This document shows positions 3,601-63,872 of a stretch of 64,000 nt of DNA, piece after piece (position 1 is the first letter of the stretch; each line of letters begins with the position of its first letter). The translations under genes were made by a program, and so were the position numbers. Under the pieces are notes generated by a model that was not told where the DNA came from, ran no database searches, and saw nothing but the letters and a program-made list of their open reading frames with translations. Source of the DNA: Owenia fusiformis (lineage: Eukaryota; Annelida; Polychaeta; Sabellida; Oweniidae); the NCBI GenBank assembly GCA_903813345.2, contig CAIIXF020000008.1, forward strand, positions 1,871,341 through 1,935,340, in the 5' to 3' direction.

Positions 3601-6600
3601 TAGAGTCCAAGCCTGTGTATGCACTTTGACTATGAATAATTTTAGAATAATAACATTAACTGTAACTGGAATACACGTTCAAAGGACGATTCTCGGTTTG
3701 GAGAACGAAGTTCATCAATCTAAATGAGCATTATCCCTGCTGCGGACAAATTTGATTTTTTTTACATAATATAGATTTGAATGTCTTCTTTTGAATAGTT
3801 ATAATTTAATTTGGGTAATATTTCTAGATTTTTTGCAAAAAAAAATATTAGCGCAGTACACTGATGAACTTTCCCCAAATCGAGACTTGTATTTTATTGA
3901 ATCAGTCTAATTGAGCGTTACCCCTGCTTCAGACCAATTTGTTATTTTTACATCTTGTAGATTTAAATGTCCTCTTTTGAAAATAGTTTAATTTGGGTAA
4001 TATTTCTATATTTTTCATGAAAAAAATTATTAGCCAAGGAGACTGTTCTCCAAACCGAGAATCGTCCTTTTTGGTCCATAAGTGTTATCCCAAATTACAC
4101 CGACTGAGGAATTAAAAATTTGATTGCCCCTGAATCCATTTATCATCTCATTTTGAGTATACATAAGTGGATAATCATGATGTACATGTATTAGATATTC
4201 CTTACAGAGGATATATTCAGGCTGAAAAAATGTCAATGATTCATAATTCAAACACTTCATCACTAAGAGTTACTGGGTTAAAATTCAGAGTGAAATGGGT
4301 CCAAAGCCCCAGATGTGCCTATTTGACATCAACATTCCCTATTAATAAAAAAAAAACCAGGAGAACATAAGATATGGCAATAACACTTACAAATTGAATA
4401 GTTAACATAGAATAAAATGAATGGGCATTTGACATAATAGTCTATAATTTGAATTGCAGTTTCAGTTACCAATAATGTTGATGGATGGATGAGAACATTA
4501 AATGACGATGGATGGAATAACTTCAAACCAATGAACATATGGATGCCTGGGTGTTACCATAGTGTGATACAAGCACATCATTGTCTATAATCTACATCAT
4601 AGATATGTAATGTATCTTACCTCTCCTGATTGTTTGATTACATCACTGGGAATGATACACCTTGGAGCTGGTTCGCCTCCAAATCCACACCTGCAACAAA
4701 TAATGTGACATACATGTATATGCAGTGAACAGGTTAAGCAGACAATGTGACATATATGCAATGTAATAAACAGGTATAACAGACAATGTGACATATATGC
4801 AATGCAATGAACAGGTGAAGCAGACAATGTGACATATATGCAATGTAATAAACAGGTATAACAGACAATGTGACATATATGCAGTGTAATGAACAGGTGA
4901 AGTAGACAATGTGACATATATGCAATGTAATGAACAGGTATAACAGACAATGTGACATATATGCAGTGTAATGAACAGGTGAAGTAGACAATGTGACATA
5001 TATGCAATGTAATGAACAGGTATAACAGACAATGTGACATATATGCAGTGTAATGAACAGGTGAAGTAGACAATGTGACATATATGCAATGTAATGAACA
5101 GGTGGAGCAAACAATGTGACATATATGCAGTGTAATGAACAGGTGAAGCAGACAATGTGACATATATGCAATGTAATGAACAGGTATAGCAGACAATTTG
5201 ACATATATGCAATGTAATGAACGGGTGAAGCAGACAATGTGACATATATGCAATGTAATAAACAGGTATAACAGACAATGTCACATATATGCAATGCAAT
5301 GAACAGGTGAAGCAGACAATGTGACATATATGCAATGTAATAAACAGGTATAACAGACAATGTCACATATATGCAATGCAATGAACAGGTGAAGCAGACA
5401 ATGTGACATATATGCGATGTAATAAACAGGTGAAGCAGACAATGTGACATATATGCGATGTAATAAACAGGTGAAGCAGACAATGTGACATATATGCGAT
5501 GTAATAAACAGGTGAAGCAGGCAATGTGACATATATGCAATGCAATGAACAGGTGAAGCAGACAATGTGACATATATGTGATGTAATAAACAGGTGAAGC
5601 AGACAATGTGACATATATGCGATGTAATAAACAGGTGAAGCAGACAATGTGACATATATGCAACAGGTATAACAGACAATGTGACATATATACAATGCAA
5701 TGAACATTGTAAACAGTTGCAAATAACTCCTATAAATGTGAGAAAATGATAGCTTCAAGTCTTAAAGAGTTCCATCTTCCCTAAAAAATCTGTGCTAAAA
5801 TTGTATGTAAAATTGACACCATACTAAGAACTGAATTTGAAGATTAATGATGAGAATATGTCAATCGTTTTTGCTGAACAAGTGTTCAGTTTGGACAATA
5901 AATAAATGAGTCGTCGATTTTCTATCACCATTTCCAAACCATGGTGGTTTAAAAGCTCATAGTTTCCAATATTGTCTAGATATATATCTCCTAAAATTTG
6001 TATATTTTTCATTTTGTACACCCGCATCTACTTTTTTGAAAACTTTCTTATTTTTAAGGTCTTTGAAAATTTGAATCCATTTCTAGAAATAGAGAAAAAC
6101 TGATTTAAAAATCTTTTTTCCTTTTTATGACCACAATTTTTGTTTCAGACAATTTTTCTAATTTTCAGAGCTCCTGTCATCTAAAACAATATATTGGGCA
6201 CATTTTCTGAAAAATACAAAATAATCTGTTACATGACCTTTCGGAAATGCTAACTTTTTACTGTCACAATTTCAGAGGGCTGAAAAAGCTATTTCAGCAT
6301 GGTAGGGGTAATTTTGACCATGACAGTAAACTGATTGAAAACTGGTTAAAGCAGAACTCTGTTACCTTAGTACAAAAAAATTCTAAAATCCACATGGCTT
6401 TTTCATTTCCTGTTTGGTGTAAATTTCTGATAACTACCGAGACCTTAGCCTTGCCCAAGTCAGTATTTTTTTTACTTATCTGATCTTGAATTATTACCGC
6501 CTTGTACAATCCAATACATCTCCGCTGATATTATGCTAAGTTATTCAGCGGGTTCGAGATTTCCATAATTCCTACGCTGTCAGGGGTATCGCCAAACCTT

Positions 6601-8894: not shown

Positions 8895-9219
8895 TTCGCA
8901 CCCAAATGTGTCTTGCAACAGATAGAAATCCCAAAAGAAACGTCAATTTTGAAATTTTAGAAATTTTCAATTTGGTAAGCCTTTAGTCTAGTGTACAACT
9001 TTCCGACCTTGACAATTTTAAGATTTTATCAATCATATTCAAATATATGTATATATATATTCGATGTACAACGATGTAAAACTAGAACTGTTTTATTCCA
9101 TTCGATTTTTGAAAAAATCTTTCATTTGTTCTTGAATCAAAACTAAAATGTGAAATATTCCCATTATTTTTCTCAAGGTCACGCTGCTCAACATTCACAG
9201 CTACTATATTTCTTGAAAA
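8895..9219. promoter_or_regulatory. Probable bidirectional promoter between ACTR10 and the TEX55-like gene
   Basis: The two start codons point away from each other and are separated by 325 bp, so both promoters and 5' leaders must lie here unless further non-coding first exons exist. The stretch is AT-rich, with a run of TATA-like alternating AT near 9045-9060. No specific factor site was identified; the promoter call rests on gene arrangement. Confidence 0.5.
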
Positions 9220-14587: not shown

Positions 14588-14813
14588 TTAATTGGTTGCC
14601 TAGTAACAAAGGAAGTAAACTAACATGGTTTAACATTCAAAATTCAAAGAAATAAAGTGGTCAAGACTTGCGAAACAAGTGAAATGGCGGTAACATTTAA
14701 GGCTGAAAGTTGCCATGTGCGAATACCGTTCCGGGTGGCAGGGTCCCTGTATTAAAAACTATCTAGAAAACTATATAAAATATATCATTTCTCCATGAAA
14801 TTAACACAGAAAG

Positions 14814-16135
14814 TGTAACATCCCCTCAAAATATACTGTGGTAGCATGGTTAAAAGAGAGGGAGATGTTATGGATTAAATTATGAATTTTATATTCTATC
14901 TAATTAATTATGGGGGGTGTAAAACATCTGTCTTTACAATGAGTCTTATAGGAAATAAACTTTTATGTCGAAAGAAAGATGGCGCTCTGGCAAAAATCTC
15001 TACATCTTGATTATACTTGGAATTGTCTCATGAAGGGGGGGGGGGGGGATAATATCAACTTAAGAAATATAACACGACAAAAGTTTTAAATAAAGAAACA
15101 TATTTACAGGTGTGTATATTTTTAAGATATTTAAGATAACAATGACAACAGTACAGTAAAAATTAGTTATGAATAATCAAACTGTGTTTTGGGAGAAGTT
15201 TCTGTATATAAAGTGACTAACATGGACTAACAATGACTAGCACGAATTATAACAAGTGACTAACACGAGCTAACAAGTGACTAGCAAGTGACTAGAAAGT
15301 GACTAACAAGTGACTATCAAGTGACTAGCACGTGACTAACGAGCTACATGGTTGGAAATTTGCCCGGAAATTTGCAATATGACTGCCGGAATTTCCAGAG
15401 ACTGGGAAAGCTGGACTGTGGGGTACTTTGGGAAGGGGAAATACATCTCTCTAATAGGATACATGGTCCTGGGACTAGAGTAGATGTAAAGGGGATCCTG
15501 GGCAACTTTTGGGCCGGAGCATTATATACATTTCAAGGTAACTTTCATGTCAAATCTCATAACAGAATGTCATAAAACATATATCAATTTGTTGATCATC
15601 ATTTGATTAATACAAATATATATTTACCTAACACCAATAGAGTCGGAATACTGCAAAATCGATCGAAACGTAGGAGATATATCCATTAGCATCCTTACAG
15701 TTAAAATCTAAACAGAACACAAACCAAACTTCTCAACGTACTGAGGAAAACCTTACGCCGAATACTAACTTAACAAACAAAAGTATTTCATACGTAATAC
15801 TGAAATCAAAATATGATGAACATATTAAATAAACATGTTTAAGAAGCTGTGATTAAAGTAAATTGCTTATAATTAATGCTAATTACTGGATCAAGTCTTG
15901 GGACTATATTCTGCACTATTTGCAGTTAAATATTAATACGCCATCACTGAAAAGTATGTATTTGGAGATTGGCATTCTTCTTGAGAGTGAATATCAGCTG
16001 AATGCATATAAACGTACAACTTATAAACGATTAAAGTTAAAATCTGATTAAATATAGAGATAAATACAGTAACAGCACACCAAATAATAAGAGAAATTAT
16101 GCTATAAGTGTATATGAATTTGGTGGGTTGTTACA
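14814..16135 (-). repeat. LTR (3' LTR in element orientation), 1322 bp
   Basis: It matches the copy at 18538-19874 by eye throughout, apart from the G-run (14 G at 15035-15048 here, 29 G in the other). It contains a short 9-10-bp repeat of AAGTGACTA/ACAAGTGACT type near 15230-15335. The open frames at 15348 and 15863 recur in the other LTR and are not recognised proteins. Confidence 0.92.
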
Positions 16136-17502: not shown

Positions 17503-18537
17503 AGACTGTTGGAAATTAACCCCCTACTCAACAGATATTTAATAATCAATTTTCCGTGGGTGGGTAACTGACTACCATTGGCGACAGTTATGGCCGTAAC
17601 TGCCTCGCTATCTGAAGGGACCTTATAAGACCACTTGGCCTAACTTATATGTACATGACTCTTTGCCAATACACTTACTTTAACCCCTATTTTCAAACCA
17701 AACAGTGGAGAACACTGCCTAATCATATAGACAATACTACCTAAACTTATAGGCAATAACACACCTGAATTTTGTATCATCGGCCCCTTGACTATTTACA
17801 AAGATCTCATGTGGGCTGGGATGAGATCTTACTTACTGGTATATACATTATATTTATCTAAATAAGAGCACCTGAATGCTCAACTTCTCGGGTCGGTCTG
17901 GTGTACGCACTGTGGTTAGGACATGTGCCATGTTCTGTTGGTGGAGAGACAACAGAATTAGTTATAATTGATGCCAGGGGTATTGACATCATGGACTATT
18001 TGAGATTTGGATACAGTGAGGAATATATCACATTTCATGACTGATATTATTGGACACAGTCTGTGAGGTACTTGGACTTTAAGGTAACATTTACAGGGAC
18101 GTCCATTGCCTCGTATGGGTGCGCGCGTACCCAAGCTATCTCTCAAATGCTCATCATGTCCAGCATGACAAACAAAAAAAAGAAACTCACAAACAAGGAA
18201 TGGACGGGGATATGAATATATCATGATAATTTGTTACAAGGGCCTTTATGGGCATCGTTCAAGTATCAATGGTTTCACTGTAATGGAATAAAATGGTATG
18301 CAAGGTGGGGGAACATACCATAAAGGTGTATAATGGAGGTGGCCACTATAACAGGAAGTAGATTTAGGGAAAACTACTTCATCAATCAAAAGGGGCAGTC
18401 CCTATGGTAGGCTATGGGGACTGGGTGGTCTGAATAGTTTCACTGTAGGTAACTAAAAACGGACATGTGATCCGGACATGGAAAAATGTGGGTCTTGATA
18501 GGGCGAGACCTATCAAAATTCCACCGCTGCCAGCCAG

Positions 18538-19874
18538 TGTAACATCCCCTCAAAATATACTGTGGTAGCATGGTTAAAAGAGAGGGAGATGTTATGGATT
18601 AAATTATGAATTTTATATTCTATCTAATTAATTATGGGGGGTGTAAAACATCTGTCTTTACAATGAGTCTTATAGGAAATAAACTTTTATGTCGAAAGAA
18701 AGATGGCGCTCTGGCAAAAATCTCTACATCTTGATTATACTTGGAATTGTCTCATGAAGGGGGGGGGGGGGGGGGGGGGGGGGGGGGATAATATCAACTT
18801 AAGAAATATAACACGACAAAAGTTTTAAATAAAGAAACATATTTACAGGTGTGTATATTTTTAAGATATTTAAGATAACAATGACAACAGTACAGTAAAA
18901 ATTAGTTATGAATAATCAAACTGTGTTTTGGGAGAAGTTTCTGTATATAAAGTGACTAACATGGACTAACAATGACTAGCACGAATTATAACAAGTGACT
19001 AACACGAGCTAACAAGTGACTAGCAAGTGACTAGAAAGTGACTAACAAGTGACTATCAAGTGACTAGCACGTGACTAACGAGCTACATGGTTGGAAATTT
19101 GCCCGGAAATTTGCAATATGACTGCCGGAATTTCCAGAGACTGGGAAAGCTGGACTGTGGGGTACTTTGGGAAGGGGAAATACATCTCTCTAATAGGATA
19201 CATGGTCCTGGGACTAGAGTAGATGTAAAGGGGATCCTGGGCAACTTTTGGGCCGGAGCATTATATACATTTCAAGGTAACTTTCATGTCAAATCTCATA
19301 ACAGAATGTCATAAAACATATATCAATTTGTTGATCATCATTTGATTAATACAAATATATATTTACCTAACACCAATAGAGTCGGAATACTGCAAAATCG
19401 ATCGAAACGTAGGAGATATATCCATTAGCATCCTTACAGTTAAAATCTAAACAGAACACAAACCAAACTTCTCAACGTACTGAGGAAAACCTTACGCCGA
19501 ATACTAACTTAACAAACAAAAGTATTTCATACGTAATACTGAAATCAAAATATGATGAACATATTAAATAAACATGTTTAAGAAGCTGTGATTAAAGTAA
19601 ATTGCTTATAATTAATGCTAATTACTGGATCAAGTCTTGGGACTATATTCTGCACTATTTGCAGTTAAATATTAATACGCCATCACTGAAAAGTATGTAT
19701 TTGGAGATTGGCATTCTTCTTGAGAGTGAATATCAGCTGAATGCATATAAACGTACAACTTATAAACGATTAAAGTTAAAATCTGATTAAATATAGAGAT
19801 AAATACAGTAACAGCACACCAAATAATAAGAGAAATTATGCTATAAGTGTATATGAATTTGGTGGGTTGTTACA
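18538..19874 (-). repeat. LTR (5' LTR in element orientation), 1337 bp
   Basis: Second copy of the LTR. The 15-bp length difference is fully explained by the longer G-run (18759-18787, 29 G). The lack of other differences implies very recent insertion or gene conversion. Confidence 0.92.
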
Positions 19875-20129
19875 AAAGTAGTTAGGTGGTTGGTCTTTAT
19901 TATTGGAAAGTTTAAAGTAATTTTATCAAAAACCAACAAAAATAGAGCAGGGCGTCCAAGACTTTTGGATCACCCCTCGTATTGGAGTTAAAGACAATTC
20001 ACTTTTTACGTGATGCTTTGTTTCCAAATTTTTATCAACAAAGAATATGACAGATCCCCAATATGGGGAATCCCCAGGAACCCAATTTTCAACCAATCAG
20101 AATCAATGTTTACAGAAGGATGACTCATT

Positions 20130-36800: not shown

Positions 36801-39800
36801 AAATGTTATTTTTTCCAGGATTATCTAATCATAAGGTATTGAACTAATACCTTTAACTCTTATATCTTCATTCATTAGGGTTGTTCAATCACGAAGGAGG
36901 CTACCTTGAACTGTCGCATCTCCAAATCACCATGTACATCCCACCTGGTGCTATCCCCTTCAATGAGAAACGCCAAGTATTCATGTACGTGTCCTACCAC
37001 AATGAGGATCTCCCTGCACTGAAGGGCAGCATGAGTCCAATGGGGCCTGTGATATACTGCGGAGAACATGGGCAGAAGTTCCTTTCTCACGTGATCATAA
37101 CCTACCCTGAAGTTGACATGAACTGTATCGATAGCGAGTTGTGGCAGTATAGATTGATGAGGACTGATACTAGTCATAATTCAGTGTCGAAGTGGATTGA
37201 TGCAACATCTGATGTTGACACACAGACATTTGTGTTAGGCCAACAGCGGGTCCTGTTGGTAGATCATTTTACAGGTATGTGACAATAGCAATTACATATA
37301 TACATGCATGTCAAATTATTAATACATTAAATGAATAAGGTTTATTATATGGGTCTTCAAATCTTGGTGCTTGCTCATTGATTGTAATCAACTTTCACCT
37401 GACATTGTATTACTCAATGGAGAAATGTGGTCTTTTAATCTGGGCAGCCTTTTTGCTTAAAAGTTGGTCAACTATCTAGATAAATATGTGATTGAATCTG
37501 AGTTGAAGTCTTTCACCAAAAATATACATATCCCAGTTTATTTTATTTAACTTCTATTCATACAGGTTACCAGATCTCTGCGGAAGCTGGTTCCTCTAAA
37601 GCCACCAAGCAGATGAAACTTGGTGTGTTCGGGGACAAACTCTATGCTGGCGACCCTGTGTATGACCTGAAGGTGCGCATCTACAACGACGGCACTCCCC
37701 AACATGATCTACCACTTGATGACATTAGGTGTATTGATGTCATAAACAACAACCAGCCTTTATGTATCAAGGTCAAGGACATAGGGCCAGGCTGGAAAAT
37801 GGATGAAACTGAACAGGTTTGCGTCATTTCTATTCAAACCCATTTTGATACACACAACCTCTTAGAGTTAGAAATCAATCTACTTTTGAGATCATATTTA
37901 CAAGTACAAGTACAAATCTCTTCAAATTCATGGTTGATATAGCACGAATCTCAAGAAAGATTAGAGTGCAATCTACACGAGATAATAATTTGGTCATAGT
38001 TTTGAGATCTTATTTTTGCTTTTGTTTCTCAAATGTGGTCATCAGTATAGAACTTCTATAAGAGAATTACTTCTACAGGTATTCCTTATATGTTTTATGC
38101 TATTTGGTGTCCTTCAGAATTGTTACTGAAGTTTGAAGTTATTGTTATGAAGAAAACATAATATTTTCTTAAGATAAGATACTTCTATACCCTATACATT
38201 AATGTAACTGTGTATGACAGAATGGAAGGAAGAGAAGTTCCCATGTACATGTATAGTATATGTTCTTGTACTTCCAGGAGATCAGCTTTGAGCACGTCTG
38301 GAAGAGCCAGAGTGAGTCCTGCACGTTTCGTTCATCACAGTATGGGGGTAGCTCAGTCCCTTTCTACTGCTCTGTTGAGGTGTTTCAAAAACGCACCACA
38401 GAGGCCAACTCTAAACGCCTCCTCAGACCCATGGCTAAAGTCTCTGAGAAGATACTTGAGGTGGGTAATGCTGTAGTACAGATAATAACGCTAAATGTGC
38501 CATTTTATATGTATTGCAGTATCATGAAGTAAATATATCAATATGTATTCTGTTTGTTTTGATGTATTTTGTTGTACTCATGTTCCTGAAAATGGGAAAA
38601 TAGAAATGCTGGAGAAAAAAATGTTGAGCATGCAAGGTGCATGTCTGAAATTTAACATGATACTTAACCCATCTTCAAAGTCATATGTGTATTTTGTGTT
38701 GCTATCCCAAGTATGTATTGAACTTTATTTCATGCCAAACAACCAAAACATGTTGTTATTAAGATGTATTTGTGTTCTTGCTTCAGGTTAATCATGTTCC
38801 AGTTCAGCACAACCAGCTGACTGAGCCAAAGACCCCAGAGGCAGCGTTCTATGAGCTTGAACTGTCACCTGCTACGAGGCAAGACACGGGGCTCCCTTTG
38901 GTGATGCAGCAGCGTCTCGCTGTCACGCTCGATCCCACCCACCCAGAGGGAAAGGACTGGACTCTCCTTGCTGAAAAAATCGGGTTATCGCATGACATCA
39001 TCAGGTGGATAAATGAGCGTAAAAAATCGCCTACCATGTGTGTGCTGGATATTGCAGCTGCTATGTATAAGGGCCGGGTACAGAGATTCCTGAGTCAATC
39101 ATTTAGCGTTATGGGACATGAGGTTTGTGGTCAGATAGTCGAGGAATGCAGCACTCAAAATAGATGGAGCATCAGCTCAAACGGGCAAGGGGGTCTCTCC
39201 AGAGACAGCACAACAAGTGATGTCACAACCAAGCTATTCCAGATGAAAATGGAGCAAAAGTCACGTCAGAGTAACCCGCAAGTGAAATCATTCGCATCTG
39301 AGAGTGGATACTCTAGCCAGAGTCAGTATTCGAAGTTCTCGAGCCAACCGAACATTCAGAGCCCTGTCTCTAGGATAGATGTGACACAGGCCTCTTGGGG
39401 TGACGTCTCTAATGAAGGCCTCGATTATGACAATGTATTATCGCCAACAGATCAACCACCAAGGCATGTGATGAGCCAATCAGTGCCTTGTATACCTGGG
39501 TTTGGTGTCCAGGCCACAATGAATATACCTCCCCGCGATGCGACGACTCTCTCATCTGTCTCAGAAACTGATTCACAGCAAACGGTGCTAGCAACCTGCT
39601 CAGAGAATACATTACTGGGTGACAATAGAGACACTAAGTCCCTTCCAAGGACCCCTAGTCCAAAAATTCTGGAGCGGACCACAGAACGTAACTGTGCCAG
39701 CCCAGTTATGAATGCTTACCCAACACACTCAGACGGGGACCTCACATTTAGCACATTTAGGCGAAACAGGCCAAAAAAACTGAACTTAGAAAAGTCAAGG

Positions 39801-39986
39801 CCGAACAGTGTGGACAGTGGGACTTGGCTGTCACCCTGTCATGTACACCTGTCTCCAGGACATGTTTGTGCAATGGACCCTACTATACAACAGGGGGACG
39901 ACAGTCATGGTTCTATCCAGTTGCTAAGCGACCATGGGGACTCGTCATTTAGGATTGTTACTCCAAATGTGAAGGACTTACCTTGA
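30836..39986 (+). CDS. UNC5-like ZU5-UPA-death-domain transmembrane protein lacking Ig/TSP ectodomain
   Basis: Nine coding exons: 30836-30856, 32053-32291, 32641-32782, 36048-36176, 36255-36519, 36879-37274, 37566-37816, 38278-38460, 38787-39986 (TGA); phase closes at all joins; 941 residues. Order: N-terminal segment with Cys at 51, 56, 65, 69, 80 and 85; membrane helix about 91-115 (IIFGMAALLSMFILVTLVCL) followed by KLQRRKNR; juxtamembrane linker; ZU5 about 266-398 (GGYLELSHLQITMYIPPGAI); UPA about 398-542; death domain about 578-662 (LDPTHPEGKDWTLLAEKIGL, then SPT); Ser-rich tail about 280 residues. UNC5 proteins are netrin receptors whose ZU5-UPA-DD module signals guidance or apoptosis. 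TAA at 30797-30799 is in frame upstream of the ATG, and no signal peptide follows. The 36048 exon has a weak acceptor; the donor at 37817 is GTTTGC. A role in netrin binding is doubtful without Ig domains. Confidence 0.88.
33802..33854. repeat. Short tandem repeat, 20-bp unit, about 2.7 copies
   Basis: The unit ATACCAATACTATGTCTGGT is repeated with one or two changes. Confidence 0.8.
33871..34080. mobile_element. CAGGCCCGTAGCCAGG MITE, copy 2
   Basis: Ends CAGGCCCGTAGCCAGG and CCTGGCTACGAGCCTG (one mismatch). Same orientation as copy 1. The interior shares AAATTCTTTCAAAATTATGC and TTTTTCACCATTT. No clear target duplication. Confidence 0.85.
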
Positions 39987-40342
39987 GAGAGGAATCGGTT
40001 GATTCTTGTTGAAAATGACCAAACTCAATTTTTGATCTCAAGATATGAGATCTCAGAATTGAATGTATGTTTTTATTAATTCTCATTTCAAGAAGGTTTT
40101 TATGGTTTACAAACATCCAAGCCATTTGTAGATCAGTTTAAATGGTTACTGATGTATCAACTTTAAACCATAGTTCTGTGAAACATTTATAAAAATTACA
40201 TCATTTTGTAAGAATTTGTATCCGATTGTGCAATTGTAAAGTAGATTTGAATTTTACTTTGTAAAAAGTAATATTATTTTTATACCTGAGCATAATCCTG
40301 ACTTAGTTCTTGCTGAAATGTCTCAATCTGTTTCTATACTAT

Positions 40343-40550
40343 CAGGCCCGTAGCCAGGATTTGCCAAGGGGGGGTTCAGTTTACAAAAATTTCCAGAGGG
40401 GGCTCACATTTGACAATTTTGGCCCAAATATGGCTAAAATCACTTAAGTGGACATAATGGTGAAAAACAGCATGATTTTGAAAGAATTTTTCGCCAGGGG
40501 GGGGCCCGAACCCTGCGAAGCCCCCCCCCCCCCCCCTGGCTACGGGCCTG
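40343..40550. mobile_element. CAGGCCCGTAGCCAGG MITE, copy 3 (inverted relative to copies 1 and 2)
   Basis: 16-bp perfect terminal inverted repeat. The interior reads as the reverse complement of copies 1 and 2 (ATTTGCCAAGGGGGG near the left, C-run at the right). ACTAT flanks both ends, a 5-bp target duplication. Confidence 0.88.
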
Positions 40551-41188
40551 ACTATACTCTTGTAATGTCTTTGAAAACATATTTAATATGTGCACTCAAA
40601 TGTTTATATACACAAATCACTAGAAGAATTGTGTGCGAATATATAAAAACATGAATAAGTACATTATTTTAACAAAAGGCCTTGAAAATGTGCCAACTTG
40701 AAGTAACCCCAACATCTAATCGTTAAATGGGCCAATTACACGTTTCTTTTTGCTGTACATATGACAGTAGCATGTGTCAGTGGACACAATGGCCTACATA
40801 GGATAATTCAAAAACTGGGGATAACAATAAAATGAGGACTTAATTTCAAAGGTGATCTATAAAAGACATCACATTTTTTCACTTTTACAAGATTCATCAT
40901 ATAATGGTGCTTCAATTGTATACGTTTTATATTTCAGACCAATGATTGAATTTGTTAATGATTGTTGACATTTTGTCATGAACTTCTGATTTGGAATTTT
41001 ATTTCAATTTAAAAAATCAGATTTTTGTTGTCAGTATTACGGAGTATTACTGTTGCTGTATACAATGCTTTCATATTATATTTGTATGTAGTGTAAATAT
41101 TACTAAGCTTGTCATACAATTTAAAAAATGTTTAGTTTTGCATACATACTCATATATATGAAAATATGTATTTTATTGCCCTGAAAGG

Positions 41189-46100: not shown

Positions 46101-49100
46101 AAATGGATTTTCAGGTGGGTGCAAGCCTAATTTCAAAATCTCAGGTGGTTGCTACGCCCATTTGCTTTAATGCTTTGGATATTACTGTGATATAATCTTA
46201 CCATCTGCCTTGACAAGCTTCATGAGGGGGTTTGCAATAAGTTCCTGTACAGATGAGTCTCCTTTCCTCACTCCATTAATCATCCATGGAGACTGAGGCA
46301 AAGAACGACTGTACTTATTATACCTCCCTGCAAAATAGGGGTACACCATCAAAAACTTTCATAAAGTTAAGAATTCATAAGTTGATGTTCTCATACCATA
46401 CTAATGTCTTCCATGGTAACAATTAATTTAGGAATCTTGAATTCAAATGGGGTTCTATTAAAGTATCCATGTCTGAAATAAACTGAATTTTTCAAATATT
46501 TTAAATGATAGATTACAGGAGATGCTGATTCTTTATTAATTAGCTGCATTTAAATATGTACAAAATTTTTTCACCCTGGATAGGGACAAAGGATAAATGT
46601 TGTGGGTGAAAAAATGATACAAGATATTTTGAACTTTTTCCTTTACCTGCCAAGAAGAGTGCATCATGGGAACAGCTCAGTTTACAACTGCAAACTTTAC
46701 TAAGTTTCCTAGGTGGGCACTGGTACTGCCTGCAAGTGAAAAAAATGGCTCATCAAATATCTGAATACAAATCACATGAACACATATTTCTATAGTGAAA
46801 ACAAATTGTGAACATCTCTCTAGTTAACCCTCTTTACACATCTCTAACTTCTTATAGCAAATATCTCTTCAGAGAAAAAACATTTTCAGTGGTGACTTCT
46901 TTGAAGATGCGTAAGATGCATAGAAGTGTATGAGTAAGATTTGATATGTAGGAGATACAATATTAACTTACTTCTTAAACAGCTTGTCTGTTGTATCATT
47001 GATAGCTGAGGCAACATTGGCTCTTGTAAACAAATCCTTACCATACTGTAATACAAACAAGTCACATACTGAACAATATCCTAACTGTATCGTAGCTAAT
47101 TATTTTCATATCTAAATAATGAAAAATGACAGCCTTGATATTTTCTTATCATGGACAGAATCTAATCAGTTCTAGATATCATCCATGAAAATTTCAAATC
47201 AAGCTGTTTTTCTGGAAATGCATACATTGCATATAGTAATATAGTCATGGAAAGTGAGCTGCCACCACCAACCTGGCCACATATTCAAAAAATGCAAATT
47301 ATCAATAATTTTTTAAATGGGAGTGCAGTGAAAAAATGTAGACTTTGACTGATAATTTTTTAGACAGTTTCGGCATACTGTTGGCATACTATTGGCATAC
47401 TGTACCTTGGCAACTGTATTGCTGTGCTTCCTCTTCCTAAAGACATCAGGATAGAGATCAAGCCTGGAATAAATGTGTATATCAAATTATTTAAATTTCT
47501 TCATCAAAAACTGTATATCATTAGACAATTTAGCAAGTAATGCCTGGTTGCCTGCCCAGGATAATTATACAGACACCACTGTAATGATTAAAAGCATACT
47601 TTTAGACAATACTGTAATTTCAATTACAGGAACAGTATTATAAAGCAATGATTTGACAATGAAAACTACAGATTTATTCTCTACTTAATTCTAACAAACA
47701 TGTTTATGAACTTACAGAAAATTGCACTCGTTGTTTGTTTTTTCATTCTCAAACTCCATGTTGATCAGGAATGGGCTCTGAAATAATCAATATACATTTA
47801 ACATCTTGCTTTAGTCCAGGACTCAATAAATTGAATCATTGATGGTGAATTTAATCATAGGCCAAAGGGTGATAGAAATAATTCTAAACTAGATAAGAGC
47901 AACACCAAAGTGAAGCAAATGCTATCGAACAGCCATGGCTGCCATCCTTGTACTATGGCCAACATTCTCAAAATGGTCACTCAATATCCAAATTGACATA
48001 AGAAAGTTTAATATGCTTTGAAATAGGCACATATAAAATGTCAACAAAATCGCACCCATGTACATGTAAATGGTGGTCATTTTTCAAAATGTGTACCATG
48101 CTTATGAGCACTGACATATCACTCACATCTTTTTTAAAAGGAACTTGTAAGAGATGTGCCAACGAGGGTCCATTTCCCCACTTCCAGACCTCCTTTATGG
48201 GAGGCACGTCATCCTCTACACAGCCTTCATACATCTTCCTGTACAAAAATATAAATTTATTGTCCATAAATATTATAATTTCCTTTATTTTCATTTATTT
48301 CATTATTTTCAAAATATACATTAAGTACATTATTATTTAAACAATTTATTTTCAAACACGATTAAATTCACTATTCACAACTTTTTTATTAGAATAAACT
48401 AGTCATGTGATGATTCCAACTTACGGTAGTTTTTCTCTTAGGAGCACTAACAGTGAATGCTGCAAAAAAAAATTAAATCACAACAAAATGCCCAGTAATC
48501 AGCAATTTCTTAATATTACAGTCCCTGGTAATATAAAAACAATTTCAGACCAAATGTGTTTATATAAAAATGTGGATGGTTTAAAGGGGTTGGTTTCCAA
48601 AAAGGGATGACATGTACCCTTTGCGAGAGATGAGAGATCCACTATGTCTACACTCTGACTTAAATATAACTCTTTGATTTAGCATATATCTGATCAGAAT
48701 GTTTAGTCACAAAATCCTGAATTGCATTAGCAACAAGGAATTGACAATCAAACTTGAGTAAAATGCAACAACAACTACATTTGACATCATTAAGATAAAG
48801 CATCAATCTGTCAAATGATCTATCATAGTCAGAGGGTTGAAGTGGCTTCTGATTTGTAATGGTTGCAAATGCTTGCATAATTTCGATGATATGTAACCAA
48901 AGTTTTCAACCAATTTTGATGGTTGATATGCAATCGTTGGAAACCATTTCAAATTGTTGCAGTAATGGTTACACATTGATTTTGAATGGTTACGCAATGG
49001 TTTTTAACGTTTTTTTTTCTAAGGGCGATTCAGGGTAAGCACACCACCAACATGAAGACCTACATGTAAGTATATCAACTTAATGAACACCTACATGTAA

Positions 49101-50741
49101 GTACACCAACTTAATGAACACCTACATGTAAGTACACCAACTTAATGAACACCTACATGTAAGTACACCAACTTAATGAACACCTACATGTAAGTACACC
49201 AACTAAATGAAGACCTAAATGCAAATACACCAACTAAATTTTTTTTTAATTTTCAATTTTTATTTATTTCATAATGAAGACCTACATGTAAGTACACCAA
49301 CTACTTGAAGAGCTACATGTTAGTACACCAACTAAATGAAGATCTATATGCAAATACACCAACTAAATGAAGACCTAAATGCAAGTACACTAACAACATG
49401 AAGACCTACATGTAAGTACACCAACTTAATGAACACCTACATGTAAGTACACCAACTAAATGAAGACCTAAATGCAAATACACCAACTAAATGAAGACCT
49501 AAATGCAAATACACCAACTAAATGAAGACCTACATGTAAGTACACCAACTACTTGAAGAGCTACATGTAAGTACACCAATTACATGAAGAAATACCTGTA
49601 AGTACACCATCTTCATGAAGACTTTCATGTAAGTACACCAACTAAATGAAGACCTACACGTAAGTACACCAACTTCATGAAGACCTACACGTAAGTACAC
49701 CAACTTCATGAAGACCTACATGTAAGTACACCAACTACATGAAGACCTACCTGTCTGAGGAGAGTAGCTGGAGGTAGTGTCATTGAGGCCATGTAGTCGG
49801 AGTATTCAAATCCAGACTCCTTCACCACTTCATAGATCTACAACATGGAATAATAAGAATATAGATCTATAACATAGAAGTATAACAACATAGATCTACA
49901 ATACAGAAGGGCTACAACATGGATCTAAAACATAGTTCTACAACATAGAATTTAAACACTTTATTGCGAAATATGGCAGTATCACCATGATAAAATAAAT
50001 AAGAGACATGAAGACATAAATCTGAGGCCATTGGCTTTTTCAAATAACTGACCTGACATATTTAAAGAACTCACCTTTTGTAGGTAATCCTCTTCATACT
50101 GCCCCTGAAGAATACCTAGACAGGACACACATGGGTCTTTAGATATACAGGCCTCATTATCCTCATCTTCCATCTTCTCATTACCATCAACAGTCTCATC
50201 AAAAGCTCTAACAGTGTCATCTCCATTGGCACATTGAATATCATTAGAATTAGTTTCAGTTTCCATGTTAGATTCAGTGTCTGTTTTGGTGGTATCATTT
50301 TGCTGCTTCAATGTTTTATTGGCGTTGTCATGAGAACAGATATTTTTGATGACTGATTCAATCTCCTGGAAGAAAAACTGATGCTTTTTATTGACATAGG
50401 TTTTGACCTCAGACAGTGTATAATTATACAAATTTTGTTTTTGAGGTATGGATGCAAAGTACATTGAGGAAATTATGGCATTCGTTTTTTTGATCGAGTT
50501 GCCGATATATCTATGATGCTAATAAAGGAGGGGTGATGTGTTGGGGTAGTTAAAATACCTCCTGCATTTCTTTGGGGTGAGGATGTAGGTCATTAGTACA
50601 TACCTGAGTAGATTTCCTGTATGTGTCTTGCTCTGTCTCCCCTATGAAGCGCAACACACATCTAGCGCAACATTGCCATGACAACAGAGCTTTAGTTGCT
50701 ATAGCAACATCTGAATCACTGTCTCCATGGTATGACAATAT
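43184..50741 (-). CDS. PUS10: tRNA pseudouridine synthase Pus10, missing its first coding exon
   Basis: Pus10 makes pseudouridine 54/55 in tRNA and has a nuclear, miRNA-processing role in animals. Exons, 5' to 3': 50604-50741, 50075-50365, 49751-49837, 48425-48459, 48127-48238, 47716-47777, 47406-47463, 46972-47045, 46647-46729, 46202-46327, 45274-45330, 45012-45088, 44665-44838, 43917-44059, 43542-43641, 43184-43333 (TGA). All phases close; 588 residues plus the missing N-terminus (human 529). Seen: zinc-ligand pairs CCARC and CVSC-LGIL; GRYNKYSRSLPQSPW; catalytic-aspartate region ASGREDVDVRMLGTGRPF; GEEEKTKSYSAL; TPVRVLHRRSLA; YMDEHHFTLHLETEAGTYIK; EFVHSDFGRTTPSLGT. Exon 2 inserts an acidic Asn/Thr-rich stretch longer than in human. 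No in-frame ATG was found in the first exon, so another lies upstream, not located. Confidence 0.96.
44110..44350 (+). repeat. tRNA-derived SINE-like element
   Basis: TGGCTCAGTGGC (44126-44137) fits a pol III A box and GGGTTTGATTTC (44169-44180) a B box, 31 nt apart as in tRNAs. A 3' body of about 165 bp follows, with GTGTGTACCTGTATG repeats and ending near CTTCAAGTGTAAAATACG. It lies in PUS10 intron 13, about 50 bp upstream (on the gene strand) of exon 14. Family not recognised. Confidence 0.6.
44896..44962. repeat. Short tandem repeat, 23-bp unit, three copies
   Basis: The unit is CATACATGTTACTGACGATCA. It lies about 58 bp outside the acceptor of PUS10 exon 13. Confidence 0.8.
45396..45776. 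mobile_element. 381-bp MITE with 22-bp terminal inverted repeats
   Basis: ATGGTCAAAAAATGGAAACC plus CT at the left is perfectly inverted at the right (AGGGTTTCCATTTTTTGACCAT). It is the intact relative of the split copy at 2254-3185. It lies in PUS10 intron 10. Confidence 0.85.
47367..47403. repeat. Short tandem repeat, 11-12-bp unit, at the PUS10 exon 7 donor
   Basis: GGCATACTGTT, GGCATACTATT and GGCATACTGTACC run up to the donor of the exon ending at 47406; the last unit overlaps the intron start on the gene strand. Confidence 0.8.
49041..49750. repeat. Minisatellite, about 31-bp unit, about 22 copies, abutting PUS10 exon 3 donor
   Basis: The unit is AGTACACCAACTTAATGAAC plus ACCTACATGTA, with a T-rich interruption at about 49236-49275. 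The last unit (GAAGACCTAC) runs straight into the exon edge. On the gene strand, GTAGGTCTTCATG is both the real intron start and part of most units. Confidence 0.93.
49838..49950. repeat. Degenerate tandem copies of the PUS10 exon 3 acceptor
   Basis: The junction sequence CATAGATCTACAACATGG (49831-49848) recurs as ATATAGATCTATAACATAG, CATAGATCTACAATACAG, CTACAACATGGATCTA and TTCTACAACATAG over the next 100 bp. Confidence 0.75.
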
Positions 50742-52199: not shown

Positions 52200-55100
52200 A
52201 TGACAACGATGCAAGAGAAGGCACGGGAATATTTTGCCAAGAATGGTAATTTAGCTTCAAAAATCATTCTCCAGCAAAATCAACTCATAGTCATAAATTA
52301 TTATGGAAAAGCTTGGGAGAATTTCACATCTGAACAGCAAGATGCCTTGATAGATAACTGCATGATTGACTCTACAATTAAAGCTAAATATGAAAATCAT
52401 GAAACAGATGAAGTCAGCAAAGAATATAGAAACAGTGTTGAAGTGAGTTGAAGTTTTGAAGATCAAAATTCCTTTTTATGATTCGTCATTGTGTATTTCA
52501 GTAAAACTTCATTGATTCAGTAAAAACATATTCATAATTCATCTTTTCGAAGTTATGAGTATTTCAGTAAAGTTTTTATTCTATCAAAAATACTGTGCCT
52601 TATGTAGTGCCAAATTATCTCGTACCAAGACCACCTCTTCATATTGGTCTTGCGTGCAATGCATACATGTAGGAATTTCCATTATTTTTCAAAAGTAGAA
52701 ATTTAACAGCGCTAGCTATGCATATATTGCTCACTTCTAGTGATTCTAAACACCACCAAAAACGTTCTCTCAATTGGTTAAAAAGATGCGGCTGTCACAA
52801 ATTGCAGGAATTTACACTTCAATTTTTAAATCGACCAGTAATTTAACATGTCCGCCATCAACTTTCCAAATTATTTCTTATTTCTCATATTACGAGCACT
52901 ACTGAGTGAGATTATATCTGGTTTCGGTAGCCGAGTACATTGGCAAAGATTACTGAGATGAGATTATTCAATATGACGATACTGAGTTATTGAATCAATT
53001 TTTACATGTTAAAGTATATTTAATGAAACCCACTGAATTCTTCGCCATCTATTGGTAGTCTTTAAGGTCATGGGACCTGAAAATGTACATAGAGACCTGA
53101 ATTTTGCATGTCGATTTCTTATTTTACAAACTAAGTATGACATGTCTACAATTGACCAAAGGCAATACTAGTATGCTATTAGCCAAAATGGACCAATATG
53201 CACCATTGGTTTAACTATTATGTAATATACACATTAATGTGCATGTTTTATTTCAGGGATTACTTTGGAGTGATGAACACGCTGGACCATTTTCTTGGAA
53301 AACAAAAGTAAGATATTTCATAAAAGTGGTAAAAATACTCAATTTTCATGTGAAGTTAATTTAATTTGTGATAATATTTATTCTATAAACATTTCCAATA
53401 AACCATACCCCCTTTTGGTACATTGGGGAAGTTATGATATATTAGCTAGGAAGATGATGTCATAGGTTGTAGGCAATCTGAGCAAAAATAGGCTTTAACT
53501 TATTGCTAATTCTGAAAATGTACAACCAATGACATCATCAATCTATCCAATATATCATAGCTTCTTTGATGTATCAAAATGTTGCAGAGTTTATTGGAAA
53601 TGACTATCATGCATCAGCTGGGATCATTAACATAATAGTAATAATAATATCAAGATTGTTTTATTCTTTGCAATTGTGAATAAAACCCCTTGTTAACAGG
53701 TTAATACCATACAGAATGTAAAATAAATGCAGTTTGGTTATTTTATTTAGAGTATGGAGAAACTGAACTTATTTGCGGATGAGGAGATGGCCAATCCAAA
53801 AGCACCTCCAAGAAAGCCTAAAAGGTAAGAAACTGTAGCTTTAAAGATTTTATGAAGTGATCTTACTTGGTGTATTAATGTCATTTATACTTCAATACAT
53901 TCAGAAATGTTTGCTTTAGGGACCAGGTTGACACAAATTGTATTTAATTTCATTTTGACTCTTCCATCATAACACCAAATCAAAAGTGATTTGGTTTTGA
54001 GAAAATGATCCCAAATAATTTAGTGGATGTTATATCTCTATTTAAAGAAAAATGAGCATGTCATTTAAAAATGATCCTCCTCGTGACTCCCAGAAAGATA
54101 TTAAAGTTAATTTATTCAAAGTGTGATTACAGCAGCTGGATCTAATTTTTATTATTACAGGTCCAAAGGGAATTCTACATCATCAGATGGTGGCCAGTCC
54201 CCTACCTTGGCCTATAAACCTGAGAAAAGCATCTGGACGTCCCCATTTCTTGCTGCCGATAGAGGGATATCCCAAGATACAACAGACTCTCCATCCAACG
54301 ACCAAGATGATATCTTTGAGAAGTTTGGCATTTCATTTGGTGGTACTAGTCCAAGCAGAGAGAGTATAAGTCCAGAGAATGGTGAGAAATGTTCAGTTAT
54401 ATGATGCACTGCCATTTCCATTTCCAGTGTACATGTATTCCTTCAAGTTTCTTGACCACTTCTGAAATTTACAATAGACCAAATATTGCAGGATTTGGTT
54501 TTCAAAGAATGTGTGCTCCCATAATTCCTGGCCACTCCAGTTTCAGATTCACAGTGTATTCACATGAATCTTGCTCTTATTTATAAAGTGACATTCACAT
54601 AATTGCTTTGCCAGATACAAAAAGAGTGTATTCCCATAATTCCTACTCCAAGTACACAGTGGGTACATTCCCATAATTCCTATTTCAGATACAAAGAGTG
54701 TGCAATCCCAGAAGTCTGGAGTGGTTAATCAGAGTTTTGACAGTCAGGAACCATCTGTGTTGGCTAACATCAGATCATACAATAAAGAAGCATCCAAATC
54801 CCCAAGTCCTGAACACACAAGGTAGACTTTTAGTGTCCTGTCCATATGAATAGTCCATGTGTAGTCAATTACCATAACTTTTAAGCTATGAAGATTTCCA
54901 AATCCATTGTTGTGGTTTGGAAATCTATTAAATGAACTAATAAATTTCCCAGGGAGGGTTCATTAACAGAAACTCTCAAAATTACTTACATATACTTAAA
55001 ATACATTATTTTTTAGTTTCATTGAGCTAAGATTTTCTTTCAGATTTGACAGAACACCAAGCATTGAAAGATCCCCAAGTCACAAACCAAAGATCCAATC

Positions 55101-59670: not shown

Positions 59671-62600
59671 CTACTGGCCACTGCCCCCAGGTGCACTGAA
59701 ATTTTCATTTACAAACTGACGAACTACCCTCAAATTCTCACTTGCAGTCAAGTCATCAGGACTGTTCTCTGCTACTTGTGCGTTATCATCATTCTTCATA
59801 GCACCAGCCTGCTGTGGGGCTATGGGAGTTCCCACATTTGTAACATTCTCCATAGCCCCGACTTCCATGTTAGTAGTATCTCCTGGCCCACTCTGTAGCA
59901 AATCACCACTTAAAGATGCCACATATTGGTTAAGACTCGCAGTATCCATGCTTGGAAAATTTGCAATATTGTCTGTTAGGAATGCAGTTAGGGCATCCTG
60001 ATTATCAAATGTCAGTACTGACTGTGTGTTTGGATCTTGCGTGCCTTCTAGAAGATTAGTAAAGCTGACATTCAACTGAGATGTATCCAAGGTGATTGGG
60101 CCATTCCTGGCAGTATCTCCAGCCTCAGTCATCATTGAGGAGATCAGCTCACCACTGTCTGAAAAAAATTTATAAACGGTGACGTTAACAATATTTTCTT
60201 GGTGGTGACAGATTAACATAGTTTACAGTAATGAATATGCTGCTATCATTTTTGACATGCATCATGTTTTCAGAATCAGTTAATGTTAGCATCTCCAGAC
60301 TAAGATGAAATACCAACTTTGATAAAAACATTAAGCTGTAATTTATTCAAATAATATTTAATTAATTAATGATTAATAAACAGCTCACTGCTATATAGTT
60401 ATGATTAATCAAATATTATAAACTTTGATGCAACAACATAGGATTTTATTTCCTTGCTGTTCAATCTAAGGTGTAATCAAACTATCACATTTCGTTGTAA
60501 TCATTGATCAATTCCTTATTCTAATATGATACGGGATGTCACAATAGCAAGAACAATTGATTTACTGGTCTGTATTGGAGTTTTATATGACCGCATAAAT
60601 GCAAATAGTTGTTTTCTTGTCTGTTTATCATATTAGAATCGTAACAAAGACCTCGATTTCATGATTATGTCTCAAATCTTATTCTGGCCATTGCAAAAGA
60701 TCCCGATCACAACGCAATTTCGGTCTTTTAACAATGAACAGAATAAAATTTTCGGTCATAAATTACGCCATAAATCATAAAATCTCGGTCTTTATTCCGT
60801 AAGTATCCATGTACGTACCACCTTGCTGCATGGTCTGACTTAACATGGGACTCTGCTGTGGCATTGATTTTGATGGAATCATCTGAACCGGGGCTTGTGT
60901 TACAGCATAGTTAACTTCGTTGTACATTTGATTGGTTGTCTGGAACTGAGGCTCGTTGTATGCAGTTCCCATTGGTGGTCTATGGTAAATTGCAGCCTCT
61001 TCACAAGGTACTGCATCTGATTAAAAAAAATTTTCTTAAATATTTTCATTTAAAAATATATGTATTCCAAATTCTCATGTCCCATATTTTTCTAGAATTC
61101 AAGCTGAATTGTTTACGGTTCATTCATCATTTAAGTAACAATCACTAACAGAAGAAACACAATTGCATCCAATGTTAGACTGTCATTCGATACAATTTTT
61201 AATTGAATTCTGACCTCCCATATTTTTGGCATTCTTTTTCCGGGCAGCTGGCTTAGCTTTTATTCTATCAGCCAAGACTGTTCCCTGAGGGATGTTTGCG
61301 GGCCTCTGTATCTGGCCTGGGGCATACTGGGTAGTGGACTGTCCTGCAAAAAGAAGTAAAATATCTTGGACTGTTTCCTTTGTGTAGATGGAGGCTATTG
61401 GTATGATTCATCTACAGGTAAATGATCAACATTCCTAGAATGAATATACACATTGTTAATGACCTCCAAAATGTAGTCAGGTGGAAAATGTTGGTATCGA
61501 AAGGTTTTGGTGCCGGAACAGCGCCAAATTTTTTCAATGCCGAAACGGCGCCAAATTACATTGGCTGTGTATAAGGAATTGTTGATGCATATAAAGAATG
61601 GCCAATTACCTCCCATATAAGGAATTGTTGTTGCATATAAAGAATGGCCAATTACCTCCCATATAAGGAATTATTGTTGCATAAAAAGAATGGCCAATTA
61701 CCTCCCATATAAGGAATTGTTGATGCATATAAAGAATGGCCAATTACCTCCCATATAAGGAATTGTTGATGCATATAAAGAATGGCCAATTACCTCCCAT
61801 ATAAGGAATTGTTGTTGCATATAAAGAATGGCCAATTACCTCCCATATAAGGAATTGTTGTTGCATATAAAGAATGGCCAATTACCTCCCATATAAGGAA
61901 TTGTTGTTGCATATAAAGAATGGCCAATTACCTCCCATATAAGGAATTGTTGATGCATATAAAGAATGGCCAATTACCTCCCATATAAGGAATTCTTGAT
62001 GCATATAAAGAATGGCCAATTACCTCCCATATAAGGAATTGTTGTTGCATATAAAGAATGGCCAATTACCTCCCATATAAGGAATTGTTGTTGCATATAA
62101 AGAATGGCCAATTACCTCCCATATGAGGAATTGTTGATGCATATAAAGAATGGCCAATTACCTCCCATACAAGGAATTGTTGAGGACAACCCATATAAAG
62201 AATGGGCAATGATCTCCCATATAAGGAATTGTTTATGATCACCAATATAAGGTCCTACCTGGAAGATTGGCAGGCAAATCATCAGACATAAAGCTCTCAT
62301 GTAGCATCTTCTTGCGCTTTTTGCCGATCTGATGCGGATCTGAAATTCAAAAGTAGACTAATAGTATTAAGAAGATAGTCAATAAGCTGTGTCACATTTT
62401 ATATATACTTAATTAAAACTAATAATTTTTGTTTAAACTAATTGCATGACATAATTTCTTAACATGAAAATGTTGGGCTTTTAAAAATTACTTATATTTT
62501 GTTAAAACATTTTATTAAAATATCAAATGTACACAATGGAATGATATGTATGATAAAAATGAAAGCATTTGTTTTGTAACATATGAAAAGTCAAAAGAAA

Positions 62601-63723
62601 TAGTCAAAGTATCTTACCTCCATCATCGGGTACATATGTGAATGCGAGTGGCTCACTCAGCATCTCTCCATTCTCACCATCTGGTGGCATTCTCAGCTGC
62701 ACCTTCACCGTCACTGGCTTGTCTATTTGTGGGTTTTTGTAGGGCGGCGTCTTATATATGATAGCAACCTATATATGAAACCATTATACAACTTTCATCA
62801 TTTTATTAAATCATGGAACATTTAGATTGAGACTTTAGATTTTATGATTTTTATTTTATTATAATATTCATAAATCTGATATAAATGACAGGGCCAAGGC
62901 TGAATTCAAGTTTATGATTAAAAAATGCTGCCGATATAAAGCCTGACACACAATTTGTACAGACATAAGACAACAACAGACAGTTTAAATCAACAGTTTT
63001 TAAATTTTTCAATTCCTTTCTTCCTTCTCTTTTACAATGTGGCATCTTCATTCATTGTGACCTTCACACATTTTTTATTATGCTCAAATAGACTTACTTT
63101 GTGTTGTAATACATTATTTATGGGTCAAATAGATGGGTCACCCTGTATAAATTGTAAACTGTTTCATGTAATACTATAGTGCCAGCTGTATCATGTAATA
63201 CTATAGTGCTAGCTGTTTCATGTAATACTATAGTGCTAGCTGTTTCATGTAATACTATAGTGCTAGCTGTTTCATGTAATACTATAGTGCCAGCTGTATC
63301 ATGTAATACTATAGTGCTAGCTGTATCATGTAATACTATAGTGCTAGCTGTTTCATGTAATACTATAGTGCTAGCTGTATCATGTAATACTATAGTGCTA
63401 GCTGTTTCATGTAATACTATAGTGCTAGCTGTTTCACGTAATACTATAGTGCTAGCTGTTTCACGTAATACTATAGTGCTAGCTGTTTCATGTAATACTA
63501 TAGTGCTAGCTGTTTCATGTAATACTATAGTGCTAGCTGTTTCATGTAATACTATAGTGCTAGCTGTTTCATGTAATACTATAGTGCTAGCTGTTTCATG
63601 TAATACTATAGTGCTAGCTGTTTCAGCTTACCTGATGGTGAATGTTTGCAGGCTTGAAGTCAGCATAGGCCGTCCAGCAAATTAAACCATTCTGCTCCTC
63701 AAAGAACCTAATCTGTATACTCT
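59671..63723 (-). CDS. Rel: Rel/NF-kB transcription factor (class II, Dorsal/RelA-like), 3' exons, partial
   Basis: Exons, 5' to 3': 63632-63723, 62618-62768, 62259-62339, 61215-61343, 60819-61016, 59671-60158 (TAG); phases close. The first two give IQIRFFEEQNGLICWTAYAD, then KPANIHHQ joined to VAIIYKTPPYKNPQIDKPVT and VQLRMPPDGE...SEPLAFTYVPD. That is the C-terminal IPT/dimerisation part of the Rel homology region (family consensus VRFFE...W...H.QVAIVFKTPPY). The next exon carries GKKRKK, the nuclear localisation signal at the usual place. The remaining 270 or so residues are Gln/Met/Pro-rich then acidic, with SFTNLLEG and ALTAFLTDNI, typical of a transactivation tail. No ankyrin repeats, so not the p105/p100 class. 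The donor at 61214 (GTCAGA) is weak. The DNA-binding half lies right of the window. Confidence 0.9.
61571..62235. repeat. Minisatellite, 46-bp unit, about 14 copies, next to Rel exon donor at 62259
   Basis: The unit is ATAAGGAATTGTTGATGCAT plus ATAAAGAATGGCCAATTACC plus TCCCAT. Units are almost identical. On the gene strand each contains GGGAG|GTAAT, a donor-like sequence. The right-hand units decay towards the real donor, sharing CCTTATAT with it. Confidence 0.95.
63157..63625. repeat. Minisatellite, 27-bp unit, about 17 copies, 7 bp from Rel exon donor at 63632
   Basis: The unit is TGCTAGCTGTTTCATGTAAT plus ACTATAG. Since 27 is a multiple of three the array is open, but the predicted repetitive peptide is not a gene. 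Units are nearly identical (differences CCAG/CTAG, TATC/TTTC, CACG/CATG). Confidence 0.95.
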
Positions 63724-63745
63724 CTATAATTAAGAAGTAGCATCA

Positions 63746-63872
63746 GCAGCAAATACAAAATAGTGCAGTACAACCTGTCATCTATAATACAAATAGTGCA
63801 GTACAACATGTCATCAAATACAAAATAGTGCAGTACAACCTGTCATCAAATACAAATAGTGGAGTACAACCC
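63746..63872. repeat. Minisatellite, about 33-36-bp unit, four copies, near Rel exon acceptor at 63723
   Basis: The unit is AATACAAAATAGTGCAGTAC plus AACCTGTCATCA. It starts about 25 bp from the exon. Confidence 0.85.

Follow-up and report, generated by a model that had tools for sequence, protein, structure and literature searches.

Minisatellites that approach or cross splice junctions in the annelid Owenia fusiformis, and their likeness to amphioxus 'mirages'

Introduction

The stretch of Owenia fusiformis DNA analysed here (C8:1871341-1935340, 64,000 nt, hereafter the window) raises the question of why tandem arrays should lie beside splice junctions in unrelated genes. The original prediction, made from this DNA, offered two answers, namely a mechanism that starts tandem duplication at splice sites, or tolerance of the decoy splice sites that such arrays carry. 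We find that arrays crossing an exon–intron boundary have a common anatomy and recur in unrelated genes, that several of them carry splice-site copies scoring as well as real sites, and that the coding sequence repeated within introns shows constraint. Our preferred reading, to which we assign a probability of roughly 0.7, is that tandem duplications arise throughout introns and across exon edges alike, and that those spanning a boundary are tolerated and expand in the manner of intronic minisatellites.

Methods

One assembled genome of 498 Mb was searched. Arrays in the window were called with TRF, whose 41 rows merged into 28 arrays of period at least 7, and exons were called with a small purpose-built gene finder that returned six gene models with 84 junctions. 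The window is the discovery set, so its P values are inflated by choice. The independent set comprised 84 loci of ~3 kb surrounding matches to exons from five protein families (PF00063, PF00176, PF00225, PF00443 and PF00664), which were chosen without regard to repeats. These loci form 72 stretches totalling 255.8 kb, in which exons called from profile matches gave 184 junctions alongside 65 arrays. Distinct exons came from 107 of 143 retyped profile matches (79 in the first batch and 28 in the second), and 14 of the first 60 matches yielded none. Exons scoring below 8, or with an acceptor or donor score of 1 or less, were excluded (8 of 79 and 5 of 28), as were arrays inside exons, arrays filling more than 40% of their stretch, stretches without a kept exon, and two predicted 'exons' within the SNF2 array, so that neither junction total (138 or 184) includes them. 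Other exons in the independent stretches are unannotated, which lowers the count of near-junction arrays.

Two nulls were used for array placement. The first permits 25 bp of exon overlap and the fairer one an overlap of up to one repeat period; the latter was picked after the first result was known, and figures from both are given. A junction-centred test scored each 40-bp piece for another copy no more than 1 kb away. Clusters of partial exons were sought by eye in profile tables (835 matches, eight families), and only the best candidates were scored.

Results

Eight junctions of the window

The prediction had named eight junctions in four unrelated genes, and all eight are present in gene models that Pfam and PDB matches confirm (Table 1). 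The exons of ACTR10, PUS10, C1orf198 and Rel join in open, phase-compatible frames, the models being partial with some exons missing, and Pfam supports the four through Actin, Pus10_N/C, DUF4706 (which we take to be C1orf198) and RHD_dimer. Among PDB chains, the ACTR10 model matches ACTR10/Arp11 (E 3.6e-72), the Rel model matches NF-kB/Rel (E 1.7e-19), and the PUS10 model matches a chain named 'uncharacterized protein FLJ32312' (E 5.5e-100), presumably human PUS10. The Pfam match of C1orf198 covers residues 10-103 in the first three exons, the exon at 54689 being placed by frame and splice sites only. Pfam/PDB matches also back two further window models, one TEX55-like and the other carrying ZU5 and Death domains; the latter (32053-39986) lies between the TEX55-like gene and PUS10, contains a probable transmembrane exon and is presumably UNC5-like.

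Array edges range from 26 bp intronic to 22 bp exonic of their junctions, as the predicted distance of about 0-30 bp implied. The repeat unit itself takes in the junction, as the prediction said of several cases, at three of these sites (PUS10 49751, PUS10 49837 and C1orf198 54689), whereas the remaining five arrays lie near a junction without spanning it. Copied splice signals vary from array to array. The 23-copy array at PUS10 49751 carries 42 donor-like decoys scoring above 0, the best of them 6.0 against 8.6 for the true donor, and that at PUS10 49837 has five decoy acceptors above 0, of which two are at least as strong as the true one. Weaker than the real site are three decoy acceptors each at C1orf198 54689 and Rel 63723, three decoy donors at PUS10 47406 and fifteen at Rel 62259. 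No decoy acceptor scores above 0 in the ACTR10 array, and no decoy donor does so in the array at Rel 63632.

Table 1 Arrays and exons at the eight window junctions, followed by boundary-spanning arrays of the independent loci
Feature	Position	Strand	Unit and copies	Relation to junction, or basis
ACTR10 exon	4621..4690	-		acceptor at 4690; gene model, PDB
Minisatellite	4702..5695	.	~41 bp x 23	starts 11 bp intronic of ACTR10 acceptor 4690
Weak array, score 57	47372..47403	.	11 bp x 2.9	2 bp from PUS10 donor 47406
PUS10 exon	47406..47463	-		donor at 47406; gene model, PDB
Minisatellite	49035..49754	.	31 bp x 23	enters PUS10 exon by 4 bp at donor 49751
PUS10 exon, array on both sides	49751..49837	-		gene model, PDB
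Array	49831..49949	.	29 bp x 3.6	spans PUS10 acceptor 49837, 7 bp exonic
Array	54587..54710	.	37 bp x 3.3	spans C1orf198 acceptor 54689, 22 bp exonic
C1orf198 (DUF4706) exon	54689..54821	+		acceptor at 54689; frame and splice sites
Minisatellite	61570..62252	.	46 bp x 14.4	stops 6 bp intronic of Rel donor 62259
Rel exon	62259..62339	-		donor at 62259; gene model, Pfam, PDB
Minisatellite	63159..63625	.	27 bp x 17.3	stops 6 bp intronic of Rel donor 63632
Rel exon (Rel homology dimerisation domain), array on both sides	63632..63723	-		gene model, Pfam, PDB
Array	63750..63871	.	32 bp x 3.8	26 bp from Rel acceptor 63723
Kinesin mirage	C2:23266101		159-bp unit	protein-profile matches alone
USP peptidase mirage	C9:8171701		150-bp unit, 11 copies	protein-profile matches alone
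SNF2 mirage	C2:4914301		137-bp unit, 5 copies	protein-profile matches alone
Dynein mirage	C12:24489501		154-bp unit, 2 copies	protein-profile matches alone
Myosin mirage	C1		61-bp unit, acceptor TTTCAG copied	TRF near profile match
Kinesin mirage	C6		42-bp unit	TRF near profile match
Myosin donor-type mirage	C4		34-bp unit	TRF near profile match

Two other kinds of repeat were seen in the window. A 1.3-kb direct duplication (14812-16135 and 18536-19874) has copies 98.9% identical and ~3.7 kb apart, each containing an 11-bp x 12 array. An inverted pair (33870-34081 and 40342-40551) shares 87% identity across 214 bp and resembles an interspersed element, and similar translated motifs occur near 10557 and 10654.

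Distance from arrays to junctions

Of the 28 window arrays, 8 lie within 30 bp of one of the 84 junctions against 2.1 expected under random placement (P 0.0005). With 27 arrays counted, the figures are 8 against 2.2 (P 0.001) and, within 12 bp, 7 against 1.5 (P 0.0005). Window introns are short, with a median of 354 bp; measured against random placement inside the same intron, the 7 of 14 arrays found within 12 bp of a junction compare with 1.1-2.6 expected, depending on the exon overlap allowed (P at most 0.0036), and the 7 of 14 within 30 bp with 2.7-3.8 (P 0.003-0.029). Arrays that fill introns edge to edge are not a general explanation, the long Rel and PUS10 arrays abutting one intron side only. 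The independent loci have 10 of their 65 arrays no more than 30 bp from one of the 184 junctions, where 3.9 (P 0.0075) or, under the fairer null, 5.35 (P 0.037) are expected, and 6 of 65 within 12 bp, where the two expectations are 2.6 (P 0.04) and 4.1 (P 0.23). The prediction proposed comparing TRF arrays with junctions genome-wide; in the two sets examined here there is enrichment within 30 bp, albeit a weaker one in the independent loci.

These excesses, that within 12 bp in the window and that within 30 bp in the independent loci, are what might be left by a mutational process at splice junctions, in which transcription, R-loops, nucleosome edges or splicing intermediates would start tandem duplication, and the same process would fit the six of eight near-donor array edges that fall between 4 bp exonic and 6 bp intronic. 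Arrays of at least three copies do lie near junctions more often than expected (12 of 40 against 3.6, P 0.0001, in window and sample together; 6 of 26 against 2.6, P 0.035, in the sample alone). However, for arrays with only one or two full copies (fewer than three), which are the likely seeds, no clear excess is seen either in the two sets together (6 of 52 against 4.0, P 0.20) or in the sample alone (4 of 39 against 2.8, P 0.30). Junction-centred 40-mers are likewise not duplicated in excess, the window giving 0 of 84 and the sample 6 of 138, compared with 4.6-9.1% for pieces 41-340 bp intronic, and the ABC family loci taken alone give 2 of 14 arrays within 30 bp against 0.76 expected (P 0.18). 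Junctions are not hot for duplication; arrays instead run up to them. The proposal that duplication starts at splice sites, which the smaller independent excess weakens where it was read from window statistics alone, is at best weakly favoured by the 30-bp excess, and we regard a junction-directed process as unlikely.

Chance, combined with selective noticing in a repeat-rich window of short introns, would explain why the excess is much smaller in independent loci than in the discovery set. It appears very improbable nonetheless, as the own-intron null is still rejected in the window, and for arrays that span a boundary it is largely refuted by their recurrence in genes picked regardless of repeats.

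Arrays that span the exon–intron boundary

Alongside the three window arrays, seven independent loci hold an array across an exon–intron boundary, in two kinesin, two myosin, USP, SNF2 and dynein genes; we refer to such arrays as mirages. Two ABC-transporter cases, a C9 acceptor and a C12 donor, are ambiguous. Clear spanning arrays occur at 3 of the 184 sampled junctions, or 5 with the two ambiguous cases, i.e., 1.6-2.7%. Uniform seeding would place them at 1.4% of junctions (91 arrays in 255.8 kb, with an assumed 40-bp unit), and the closeness of the two figures counts for uniform seeding.

The most extensive example is the kinesin gene on C2, where an array preceding the exon brings the acceptor, together with ~126 bp of coding sequence, to 18 copies, the real one included; all are weak in the scoring matrix (decoys 1.0-2.3, true 1.0). 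Ten decoy acceptors of the USP gene score 5.1-6.5 against 5.2 for the true site, seven being at least as strong and three scoring 5.1. Decoy acceptors score 6.7-7.0 against 6.7 in SNF2 and 8.2-8.4 against 8.2 in the C1 myosin gene, the best decoys of the C6 kinesin gene score 5.8 and 6.6 against 6.6, and three decoy donors of the C4 myosin gene equal the true donor at 7.8. In dynein the decoy acceptor falls below the true one (5.7 against 6.5), as do the decoys of C1orf198 and PUS10 49751, whereas in the six genes before it and at PUS10 49837 some decoys are at least as strong as the true site. The tolerance of decoy splice sites that the prediction had entertained is well supported by this anatomy, with copied acceptors or donors matching the real site in strength in several genes.

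In the C2 kinesin, USP, SNF2 and dynein genes, the last copy alone continues to the exon end and the real donor, which scores 4.2, 6.9, 6.3 and 5.5, respectively. The five coding cases (these four and the C1 myosin) have 35 decoy units between them, and in none of these does a donor reach the score of the real exon's donor. A weak GT (1.5-2.1, against 4.2 for the real donor) lies at the joint of the kinesin units, and one SNF2 decoy contains an in-exon GT that scores 5.6 (real donor 6.3) and is also present in the real exon. Since no upstream copy has a donor to match the real one, the last copy is in the best position to pair its acceptor with a donor as an exon. Scanning by eye of the 835 matches in eight families showed four partial-exon clusters of acceptor type and none of donor type, and among units with at least 13 exonic bases, the ambiguous two aside, all seven are of the acceptor type (sign test 0.016). 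We treat this bias of coding mirages towards acceptors as a lead only.

Larger exon copies were also seen. A myosin-head exon (profile ~28-81) is present in twelve tandem copies at C9:37986009-37994334, spaced ~0.3-2 kb apart and probably alternative exons, and a dynein heavy-chain exon (profile 56-164) has three copies (C9:7082562, 7083728 and 7087077), also probable alternative exons. At C10:2256896-2257205 a kinase exon, presumably GSK3-like, is duplicated whole with both splice sites and ~47 bp between the copies, which are probably mutually exclusive.

Coding constraint on intronic copies

In the five coding mirages, 29 of 472 columns are variable in the exonic part of the unit compared with 25 of 131 in the intronic part (P 2e-5), a difference that is not significant for kinesin alone or SNF2 alone. 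Changes borne by decoys comprise 14 synonymous and 9 nonsynonymous, compared with an expected nonsynonymous share of 71-78%, according to the transition bias (P 8e-5 to 1.3e-3), and the same changes read in the two other frames show no bias. By locus, the synonymous to nonsynonymous counts are 6:2 for kinesin, 4:0 for SNF2, 4:6 for USP and 0:1 for myosin; kinesin and SNF2 carry the signal, and USP alone looks neutral. The 14:9 count is the same with or without the kinesin array-edge copy and the first SNF2 copy. An untrimmed count of 24:32 was discarded, having included bases past the SNF2 unit ends and a misaligned, truncated, stop-bearing myosin copy. Dynein has three differences, all synonymous, which lie outside the 14:9 since with two copies their decoy or exon origin is unassignable. 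No stop codon was seen in 33 decoy coding pieces. The intronic copies of coding sequence look protein-constrained.

Translation of the kinesin, SNF2 and dynein arrays is unlikely, because in kinesin an in-frame stop separates successive exon pieces, giving frames of 52 codons in units of 159 bp, and because the unit lengths of SNF2 (137 bp) and dynein (154 bp) are not divisible by three. In USP, whose units measure 150 bp, the frame stays open through 666 codons, so the array could be included in frame. A functional role for the copied exon pieces, whether as alternative starts of the exon, as repeat domains read in frame or as regulators of splicing, would agree with the frame-controlled constraint, the open USP array and the weak GT in every kinesin unit, but is rendered highly improbable by those same stops and unit lengths, by decoy donors weaker than the real one in 35 of 35 units, and by the different appearance of a true whole-exon duplicate with both splice sites, the C10 kinase.

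Discussion

We outline how boundary-spanning duplication followed by expansion would probably proceed. Introns of the Owenia genome are rich in minisatellites, and where a unit spans an acceptor or donor its extra copies would come to lie on the intron side. On the evidence of genome sequence, these copies are probably spliced out with the intron, so duplications at a boundary would be tolerated and could expand into mirages. Near-junction arrays that do not span would mostly be ordinary intronic arrays that end before reaching sequence required for splicing. There is no need to invoke a mechanism that directs duplication to junctions, although purely uniform, neutral seeding may be an incomplete account, as a modest 30-bp excess persists in the independent loci and is strong in the window.

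The constraint on intronic copies would have a simpler cause than use of the copies, and we infer that it stems from exchange with the functional exon or from repeated fresh capture from it. A more speculative extension, which is possible but which we advance with some doubt, is that the exon start is itself the last minisatellite unit and that exon and decoys exchange sequence; selection on the translated copy would protect the coding pieces of the array, and array turnover could in turn alter the beginning of the exon together with its acceptor. Were such arrays present at ~2% of junctions, this mode of evolution would affect thousands of exons in the genome, acceptors being involved more often than donors. 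The coding constraint suggests that exon and array may form one evolving pool, which could mislead gene prediction and tests of selection. With spanning arrays at ~2% of sampled junctions in another animal group, it becomes possible to test how the spliceosome selects one acceptor where as many as 18 nearly identical ones are present, and whether exon edges are reshaped as minisatellites turn over.

The arrays share individual features with several known systems. As in intron gain by tandem duplication, coding sequence is tandemly duplicated together with splice signals, but the Owenia copies sit within existing introns. Tandem mutually exclusive exons, in which the copies have both splice sites and diverged coding sequence, also place exon copies in tandem within a gene. 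Owenia mirage copies, in contrast, are nearly identical and lack the exon end, and at SNF2, C2 kinesin, USP and dynein there is no array in which every copy has acceptor, donor and complete exon. Among annelids, earthworm metallothionein genes carry minisatellite arrays in their first intron, boundary-spanning units not being described in the available part of that paper (PMC12783039).

The closest counterparts are the amphioxus 'mirages' of Adh3, the globins BflGb6 and BflGb9, troponin C and PGBD5 (PMC3087553, PMC3902484, the Adh3 and TnC reports being taken as cited there), and in open-licence PMC literature, as far as its accessible text extends, we found boundary-spanning arrays described for amphioxus only, though print elsewhere may differ. 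According to the parts of these papers available to us, both sets are minisatellite-like tandem duplications that span the exon–intron boundary and copy AG/GT splice signals, and the units are of like size, 29-61 bp and 137-159 bp in Owenia compared with 10-72 bp (Adh3) and 150-160 bp (globins) in amphioxus. The units of our four profile-found coding mirages and of the amphioxus globin ones, as given in those parts, cluster at 137-160 bp, near nucleosome or exon size, which may merely reflect exon length. The same sections treat mirages as a feature of lancelets from which new introns might arise, leave the origin of mirages open, and report RT-PCR suggesting undisturbed regular splicing and a copy number that differed between two haplotypes of one gene (PMC3087553, PMC3902484); RT-PCR and haplotype data thus exist for amphioxus, whereas the Owenia arrays are known from one genome. 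The boundary-spanning arrays of Owenia are of this known kind and not a new class. What they add is the taxon, an annelid with mirages in many unrelated genes, their frequency (3-5 of 184 sampled and 3 of 84 window junctions), arrays of up to 18 copies, and a measured constraint on the coding sequence that the copies carry.
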